Positions 34,806-35,789 of a stretch of 64,000 nucleotides of DNA are shown piece after piece. A model generated the notes under the pieces. It was not told the DNA's origin. It saw only the letters and a program-made list of their open reading frames with translations, and searched no databases. The DNA lies in contig NZ_CP015520.1 of the NCBI RefSeq assembly GCF_001647085.1, positions 1,384,219-1,448,218 of the forward strand, written 5' to 3'. The number at the start of each line of letters is the position of its first letter. Position 1 is the first letter of the stretch. Source of the stretch: Thermococcus piezophilus. Lineage in GTDB: Archaea; Methanobacteriota_B; Thermococci; Thermococcales; Thermococcaceae. Position numbers and translations under genes: made by a program.

Positions 34806-34883
34806 GGGCCCGTGGTCTAGACTGGTTATGACGCCACCCTGACAAGGTGGAGGTCCGGGGTTCGAATCCCCGCGGGCCCACCA
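34806..34883 (+). tRNA. tRNA-Val (anticodon GAC)
   Basis: Acceptor GGGCCCG/CGGGCCC, anticodon stem CCACC/GGTGG around loop CTGACAA, T arm CCGGGG TTCGAAT CCCC-G type, discriminator A and encoded CCA at 34881-34883. No intron. The inverted-repeat element at 34892 begins eight bases after its end. Confidence 0.97.
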
Positions 34884-34891
34884 TAACAACC

Positions 34892-35446
34892 CTTTGCTTC
34901 GCAAAGCGCTGGCGGAAGATTGTGTGCTTCTCTAAAAGTTTTCGAGTTTTAGTTAGAGTTTGCGTTTCACTAGCTCCTTTTTCAGGGTTTCACTTTCAAA
35001 AAGCGCCCTTTGGGCGCTGAAATAAGATGTGAAACCTTTTTACCCGCTCATCTTCGAACAAACTCTAGTTAGAAAAGCCCTTGGTAGTGCACGACTGTTC
35101 TCGGGCAATTGTGAAGAAGGGCACTCTTTGGTCAAGCTTTTTCTAAAAGCTTGTTCGCCTGCGCGACGTCGAGCAAAGCTCGACGCGAGGGATGATAGTC
35201 CCGTAGAGTTTCATCAAAGTTAGTATGTCGCTTTTGGAATTGCTAATTCTTAGAAGTAGTTTCTACAATCAAAGACTATTGCAGTCAATACGGCGCCCGA
35301 AGGATGTCAAAATAAAAATGAAACCCTACAACTTGCCGTTTATATTGATAAACTCGTTGAGGAGTGCCGTATTAGAGTTGCACGCTGTTCTGATTTTATG
35401 TTGTATGAGCAGTAAAAACTTTCCGCCAGCGCTTGCCGAAGGCAAG
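34892..35446. repeat. 555-bp element bounded by hairpin-bearing inverted repeats
   Basis: The left end (34892-34917) is the hairpin CTTTGCttcGCAAAG followed by CGCTGGCGGAA. The right end (35421-35446), read on the other strand, is the hairpin CTTGCCttcGGCAAG followed by the same CGCTGGCGGAA. The ends match at 22 of 26 positions and the four differences are paired so both hairpins keep full stems. Inside are further inverted repeats: TAGAGTTTG/CAAACTCTA (34954, 35059), GGTTTCAC/GTGAAACC (34986, 35029) around AGCGCCCtttGGGCGCT (35002-35018), CAAGCTTTTtctAAAAGCTTG (35133-35153) and GTCGAGCaaaGCTCGAC (35168-35184). No intact gene is inside; a fragment ending LAVYIDKLVEECRIR (about 35260-35416) looks coding-like. 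Its place beside a tRNA suggests a MITE-like or other mobile remnant, or a structured RNA. Confidence 0.7.
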
Positions 35447-35460
35447 GCTGATGGGATAAG

Positions 35461-35469
35461 GTTTATAAG
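35461..35469 (+). promoter_or_regulatory. Promoter of the DUF357-DUF555 genes
   Basis: GGTTTATAAG preceded by GGGATAA forms a BRE/TATA element about 40 nt before the GTG start at 35502. It lies just outside the right inverted repeat of the upstream element. Confidence 0.6.
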
Positions 35470-35501: not shown

Positions 35502-35789
35502 GTGGAGCGAGAGATAACCGAGGAAAAGCTCCGGAGGTATTTTAGAATCACCGAGGAGGCCCTTAGGACGCTTGAAATAGCCGTCCACCAGAAGAGCCTC
35601 CTGAGGAGCGTTGCGGACGACTTTTTGACTATGGCGAAGAGCTATTTTGAGGACGCTAAATACTACTACGAGAAAGGCGACTACGTGACGGCTTTTGCCG
35701 CCCTCAACTACGCACATGGCTTTATCGACGCTGGGGTGAGGCTTGGAGTCTTCAAGGGGGAAAATGACAGACTGTTTGCTTTTGGTTGA
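35502..35789 (+). CDS. DUF357 protein
   Basis: A 95-residue all-helical protein ([57 protein letters not shown]) of the DUF357 family, a two- to four-helix bundle resembling HEPN-like folds, found across euryarchaea. Function unknown. The start is GTG at 35502, with GTGAGGCGAG upstream; no nearer ATG is in frame. It is followed by DUF555 with a 12-base gap, a constant pair in related genomes as far as I recall. Confidence 0.85.

Follow-up and report, generated by a model that had tools for sequence, protein, structure and literature searches.

The window analysed here is a 64,000-nucleotide stretch of Thermococcus piezophilus DNA (NZ_CP015520.1, positions 1,384,219 to 1,448,218), in which a gene for tRNA-Val(GAC) (34806–34883, + strand; ARAGORN and Rfam RF00005) anchors an array of palindromic DNA. 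The feature under study covers 34892–35446 (555 bp) and consists of two tandem units that belong to a dispersed family of non-coding palindromic elements. It starts eight bases past the end of the tRNA gene, as had been predicted. The distal limit of the array is set by the TATA-like promoter sequence of the next gene (35458–35469, + strand), which is recognized from its sequence and conserved at orthologous loci; the gene itself encodes a DUF357 protein (35502–35789, Pfam). No credible ORF was found within 34892–35446, in keeping with the expected absence of an intact gene.

The left end of the feature is formed by the hairpin CTTTGC-ttc-GCAAAG (34892–34906, + strand), which is followed by CGCTGGCGGAA (34907–34917). 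The right end takes on the same arrangement on the opposite strand, with the hairpin CTTGCC-ttc-GGCAAG at 35432–35446 and CGCTGGCGGAA at 35421–35431. The four bases that distinguish the two hairpins are paired inside each stem, and the 27-nt arms of the feature are 85% complementary and span 503 nt. Inner inverted repeats (16 nt at 81% and 13 nt at 92%) are accompanied by the palindromes AGCGCCCTTTGGGCGCT (35002–35018), CAAGCTTTTTCTAAAAGCTTG (35133–35153), CGTCGAGCAAAGCTCGACG (35167–35185), and GGGATGATAGTCCC (35189–35202). The original prediction had described these 3-nt-loop hairpins with their inverted flanks, the compensated bases, and the further inner repeats, and all of them lie at the positions given there. 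Both strands of the feature fold well above shuffled sequence (z −6.7 and −7.1); the fold-energy gap between the strands is explained by composition and does not discriminate.

Unit 1 begins with an A-type head (34884–34917, + strand), composed of a spacer, the left hairpin, and its flank; the same head is found behind many tRNAs. Its body (34918–35132, + strand) is of the A/L type, with a unit length of about 235–245 nt, and carries U-tracts near its start and the apical hairpin AGCGCCCTTTGGGCGCT. The tail hairpin CAAGCTTTTTCTAAAAGCTTG, on the + strand, is preceded by the flank GGGCACTCTTTGGTC (35119–35133) and ends at the junction with unit 2, at about 35153/35154. Unit 2 opens with a truncated T-shaped head (35154–35219, + strand) that has lost its 5′ arm at the junction and carries the flank ATCAAAG. 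Two hairpins, CGTCGAGCAAAGCTCGACG and GGGATGATAGTCCC, are inserted in the 3′ arm of this head, which in the related genome G068 is identical in kind and free of the insert. The unit 2 body (35220–35420, + strand, apical hairpin at about 35293–35308) is orthologous in the genomes G068, G063, and G067, and the unit closes with an inverted A-type end on the minus strand (35421–35446). The feature had been read as one element bounded by two ends. The ends are real, but each belongs to a different one of two tandem units, whose outer limits they mark.

Additionally, the two-hairpin sub-module (35167–35202 in the window; also in heads at loci L025, L063, L066, and L249) occupies one fixed site in the 3′ arm, in A heads as well as B heads. 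It is present or absent between close relatives and represents a nested insertion into a hairpin. A CRISPR repeat array with seven repeats at gathering score (RF01319) lies at 47–475 on the minus strand. At gathering score, Rfam 15 picks out tRNAs and CRISPR repeats in the window and nothing else, with no match for the element.

Units, copies, and spread of the family

Reading of about 100 copies gives units of about 240 bp (A) and 265 bp (B) with hairpin-bearing inverted ends. The A head is a hairpin of 4–6 bp (CTTTC/GAAAG, CTTGC/GCAAG, CTTTGC/GCAAAG) within AGC-C...C-GCT that is followed by GCTGGCGGAA. The B head takes the form GAAACTTTT...AAAAGTTTC or CAAACTTCGC...GCGAAGTTTG, followed by AYCAARGTT. 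A T-shaped version of the head has two extra hairpins inserted in its 3′ arm. Tails are either reverse complements of heads or of a AAGCTTTT..AAAAGCTT form, and the body is centered on a GC-rich hairpin such as GGCGTCC-nnn-GGACGCC. The several end types are interchangeable, and heads, tails, and bodies are mixed freely between units, which makes the units mosaic. In a motif map of fetched loci, which is not exhaustive, units measure 160–310 bp and no long gene-bearing element was seen between heads.

Three observations on the heads and their surroundings stand apart. The hairpin base of A heads (e.g., L231, 2011–2031) holds a conserved C.C mismatch (AGC-C-CTTTC / GAAAG-C-GCT) that may serve in recognition. 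At L214 (tRNA-Gly) and L355, a B-type hairpin is fused directly to an A flank, so hairpins can be exchanged without the body. A second repeat family, TAACGAAAGACAAGGGGGCTCCGCCCCC...ATCTCTCTGTACTCTCAAACCCCCG, with GC-rich hairpins, sits right behind the tRNA CCA and at times before an A head; it is found just past tRNA-Cys, Lys, Arg, and Val (L217, L222, L225, L227, L239, and L085).

Copies had been expected elsewhere in Thermococcales, and at E ≤ 0.01 blastn with the element hits 36 of the 37 Thermococcus genomes, this one included; outside the genus a single genome is matched (E = 0.008). The exact 13-mer AGCGCTGGCGGAA, which marks the A head, occurs twice in the window, eight times in this genome, and in 72 of 94 genomes of the family Thermococcaceae, covering five of its six genera. 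Read backwards as a control, it does not occur in this genome and hardly occurs in the others. B heads are found in 67 of the 94 genomes. Neither head type was found in nine genomes of Pyrococcus, the genus of P. abyssi. One Thermococcus genome (G019, 1.5 Mb, 99% completeness) holds zero copies of both head types and is a natural array-free member of the genus. A search of the open-access literature found no description of such elements, and the main texts of the transcriptome papers on T. kodakarensis and T. onnurineus do not mention them.

Anchoring and turnover at tRNA 3′ ends

Attachment to the tRNA gene is borne out by the recurrence of heads behind many tRNAs, where units start 3–9 nt past the CCA. 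This genome has heads behind 15 or more of its 44 tRNAs, and the whole genomes of T. kodakarensis and a further one, G021, have them behind 19 of 43 and 18 of 44, respectively. Among 299 unique tRNA contexts, a sample partly chosen (enriched) for copies, a head follows within 45 nt in 154 cases, and the conserved flank most often starts 20–21 nt past the CCA. Five genomes were sampled in full and yielded 54 exact A motifs. Of these, 27 are no more than 35 nt away from the 3′ end of a tRNA, where chance would place about 1% on an assumed intergenic share; 16 more lie behind a tRNA within 1.5 kb, and none of the 54 faces a tRNA in the opposite orientation. Units stack head-to-tail with fixed polarity behind tRNAs. 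Among bodies behind tRNAs, matches in the same orientation dominate (380 pairs, versus 28 in the opposite one), and 13 of the 28 involve one unit between two convergent tRNAs. Three copies begin right behind the stop codons of protein genes. A heads are also found directly behind an H/ACA sRNA (Pab160) and a C/D sRNA (sR36), at L210 (1919–2011), L232 (about 2060), L220, L224, and L250, loci that include stop-codon cases. The tRNA is thus preferred and not required.

The DNA behind the CCA differs in P. abyssi, whose tRNAs have T-runs right behind the CCA and no arrays. Measured over 200 nt, the excess in folding energy is −3.5 kcal/mol in P. abyssi, −6.6 in Thermococcus without a head, and −13.5 with a head. 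In the arrays, T-runs recur at about 45, 60, and 72 nt past the CCA.

Orthologous tRNAs of three related genomes were compared for their arrays. In 17 comparisons a new proximal segment is joined to a common distal segment, 11 are alike throughout, and none combines a common proximal part with a new distal part. Of the remainder, 24 have no homology inside 1.3 kb, and three have lost the distal part too. Proximal-variable arrays also occur between T. kodakarensis and G021. Variation at the present tRNA-Val, another expectation of the original prediction, is found between genomes. Both units are common to this genome and G068, with a head hairpin that differs in a compensated manner (GCttcGC versus CtgacG) and a T-shaped insert that differs as well. 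A different first unit is present in G063, and in G067 the tRNA is separated from unit 1 by an additional B unit that replaces the hairpin of unit 1.

One such junction in this genome is at tRNA-Leu(tag), where G068 reads CCA-TAAGAAACTTTTCTGAGGAAAAGTTTCATCAAAG and T. piezophilus has a whole A unit, then TTTGCCAATCAAAAATTTCATCAAAG. The junction is exact, with one unit more than in G068 and the resident head lacking its first 9–10 nt. The truncation point, AAAC|TTYGCC, is repeated at 35153/35154 of the window and at many other loci. Single-unit differences with both flanks alike are found at tRNA-Leu(tag)/Val(cac) and tRNA-Pro(cgg). No target-site duplication is present at the tRNA-Leu(tag), Val(gac), and Pro(cgg) junctions; about 10 nt are lost instead. 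The tRNA-Gln(ttg) locus was rejected as a case of turnover, as its difference is an internal 82-nt deletion.

Our preferred reading, to which we assign a probability of roughly 0.55, is that the two units of the feature belong to a gene-free palindromic family of Thermococcaceae that is tethered to tRNA 3′ ends, where non-autonomous elements accrete. The predicted repeated, non-coding, and probably mobile element is supported, and we infer that its units are mobile and non-autonomous. A new unit would enter beside the CCA end, replace about 10 nt, and truncate the resident unit at its head hairpin; arrays would thereby record the events with the newest unit nearest the tRNA. Insertion would depend on an enzyme acting in trans or on a recombinational process; no autonomous copy or transposase for the units was found. 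The head hairpin and the U-tracts about 45 nt past the CCA may replace the displaced tRNA terminator, which would make insertion there tolerable. The interior of the unit would be kept as a DNA palindrome, and the arrays could then serve as dispersed substrates for chromosomal rearrangement.

The same junctions could also be read as deletions in the sister genome or as ectopic gene conversion between tRNA loci. An explanation by ectopic recombination alone, which we consider rather unlikely, holds that no unit jumps. Old palindromic intergenic DNA would be reshuffled between tRNA loci by homologous or tRNA-integrase-driven exchange, and template-switch correction would keep the hairpins perfect. 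The mosaic heads, tails, and bodies and the palindromic interiors without strand preference are consistent with such exchange, and tRNA-directed integrase inversions are known in Thermococcales (PMC5495485). It is further favored by the loss of downstream synteny at array-bearing tRNAs, counted on orthologous tRNAs with conserved upstream DNA. Synteny is lost at 9 of 18 array-bearing versus 1 of 10 array-free tRNAs in the first trio of genomes, and at 9 of 16 versus 1 of 12 between T. kodakarensis and G021 by our own reading of the block table. The pooled counts (18 of 34 versus 2 of 22, p = 0.0013) describe an association, since some array-free tRNAs lie in conserved ribosomal operons. However, each exact single-unit difference with common flanks, as at tRNA-Leu(tag)/Val(cac) and tRNA-Pro(cgg), would demand a double exchange, and exchange alone would not predict the strict proximal polarity of 17:0.

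Hairpin covariation and other origins

Covariation was counted on the hairpins alone because RNAalifold, run on whole A units aligned with MAFFT, yielded a poor consensus owing to indels. Among A heads, 64 of 72 have perfect stems in several stem versions, which upholds the proposal that the ends are kept as hairpins through compensating change. The apical hairpin shows 33 double changes versus 11.0 in shuffles, with 95.9% paired; covariation among homologues, likewise anticipated, is positive. In tRNA-sense orientation, the exceptions in the apical hairpin comprise 22 G.T and 24 A.C, whereas the acceptor and T stems of tRNAs at the same loci, used as a control, give 12 and 0 (p = 0.0007 versus apical). 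Head hairpins give 12 G.T and 2 A.C with poor fits left out (p = 0.015 against apical), and whole units are nearly balanced (GT:AC only 62:50). This wobble asymmetry suggests that selection at the RNA level is limited to the tRNA-adjacent head hairpin and that the interior of the unit evolves as a strand-symmetric DNA palindrome. The head bias is small (14 sites), and a transcription-linked mutation bias may mimic it. We infer a tRNA transcript that would include the head hairpin and stop at the U-tracts, with the interior kept as DNA.

These counts also bear on a second, still less probable alternative, in which the whole unit would function as a structured non-coding RNA that is co-transcribed with the tRNA and freed by 3′-end processing. 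The fixed sense polarity behind tRNA and sRNA genes, the covariation, and the wobble bias in the head hairpin would all fit such an RNA. Its apical hairpins, however, accept A.C and G.T equally often, which the tRNAs given the same test do not, and the U-tracts begin about 45 nt past the CCA. No Rfam family matches it, whole units are rapidly replaced between close relatives, and the main texts of the two transcriptome papers contain no mention of it. A structured RNA with long-range pairing of its two ends had been among the original proposals. It survives mainly for the tRNA-proximal head hairpin. Since each end comes from another unit, their pairing is in part an accident.

The proposed IS200/IS605-type single-strand transposon remnant is very improbable. 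Hairpins near both ends and the absence of genes recall such elements, but the Y1 transposase (PF01797) has 0 matches in this genome in a search that was positive in 5 of 14 control genomes, which leaves this mobilization unsupported. Moreover, the ends are inverted copies and not subterminal hairpins in one orientation, and T. gammatolerans has no transposase genes (PMC2718504). An integrated virus or plasmid remnant, or a casposon-like element at the tRNA, is hardly credible. Integration at tRNA 3′ ends is common to such elements, and virus-related regions within tRNA genes occur in Thermococcus (PMC2718504). Against this origin, the sequence past 35446 holds no copy of the tRNA-Val 3′ end, phage and plasmid matches are none, and the units are short, uniform, and tandem. 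Viral contigs give one 18-mer match for the A head, probably by chance, and 0 for the B head. A decayed gene was rejected, as there is no ORF and the bodies covary as palindromes.

Related systems and chromosome rearrangement

By analogy, the family resembles a tRNA-targeted non-autonomous element in the way it would work and is akin in kind to REP/BIME and to MITEs, which are non-autonomous DNA transposons, while it fails a defining feature of each. REP/BIME sequences of enterobacteria, which are linked to RAYT transposases, are short extragenic palindromes with a conserved foot that are often inversely paired and frequent at gene 3′ ends. The Thermococcus units share the dispersed extragenic palindromes, the conserved foot, and the many copies per genome. 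Unlike REP/BIME, they measure 240–265 bp with nested palindromes and exchangeable end hairpins, they sit on tRNA 3′ ends, where their polarity is fixed and their stacking polar, and a Y1/RAYT gene is absent from this genome. Like MITEs, they are gene-free and multicopy with terminal inverted repeats, a size below 600 bp, and presence or absence between relatives; they differ in having no target-site duplication at the resolved junctions, compensated hairpin ends, and no parent transposase found.

Fixed distance and polarity beside tRNA genes are shared with the tRNA-targeting retrotransposons TRE of Dictyostelium and Ty1/Ty3 of yeast, but the Thermococcus units have no reverse transcriptase or coding capacity, abut the tRNA 3′ end, and are DNA palindromes. 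As in CRISPR arrays and integron cassette arrays, the anchor-proximal end is variable and the distal end conserved, and the attC sites of integrons are hairpin recombination sites in likeness to the unit hairpins. The present arrays nevertheless contain no spacers, cassette genes, Cas, or integron integrase, and they are anchored by tRNAs. Hairpin-forming repeats of sponge mitochondria (PMC2800124) are likewise families of hairpin repeats in intergenic DNA, with another host, arrangement, and targeting.

Up to about 40% of tRNA genes carry arrays that resemble a chronological record. The arrays pose the question of what enzyme acts on tRNA 3′ ends, and with them the transcripts of many Thermococcus tRNAs would have to terminate within a palindromic element. 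T. kodakarensis is a genetically tractable model that carries arrays behind 19 of its 43 tRNAs.

Thermococcus genomes are scrambled and Pyrococcus genomes colinear, and the T. gammatolerans genome paper found the scrambling not attributable to mobile elements, with transposase genes absent (PMC2718504). The same paper reports roughly 100 genes that every Thermococcus has and Pyrococcus lacks. Tentatively, and at less than even odds, the preferred reading can be extended to a tRNA-tethered, polarized acquisition, in which units would be added singly at the tRNA 3′ end by an archaeal activity that recognizes the tRNA gene or its trailer hairpin, and in which the arrays would be the missing substrate behind the scrambled chromosomes of Thermococcus and not Pyrococcus. 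A palindromic family that is present in Thermococcus, was not found in the nine Pyrococcus genomes, and lies at the tRNAs where synteny is lost is a testable candidate for this scrambling.
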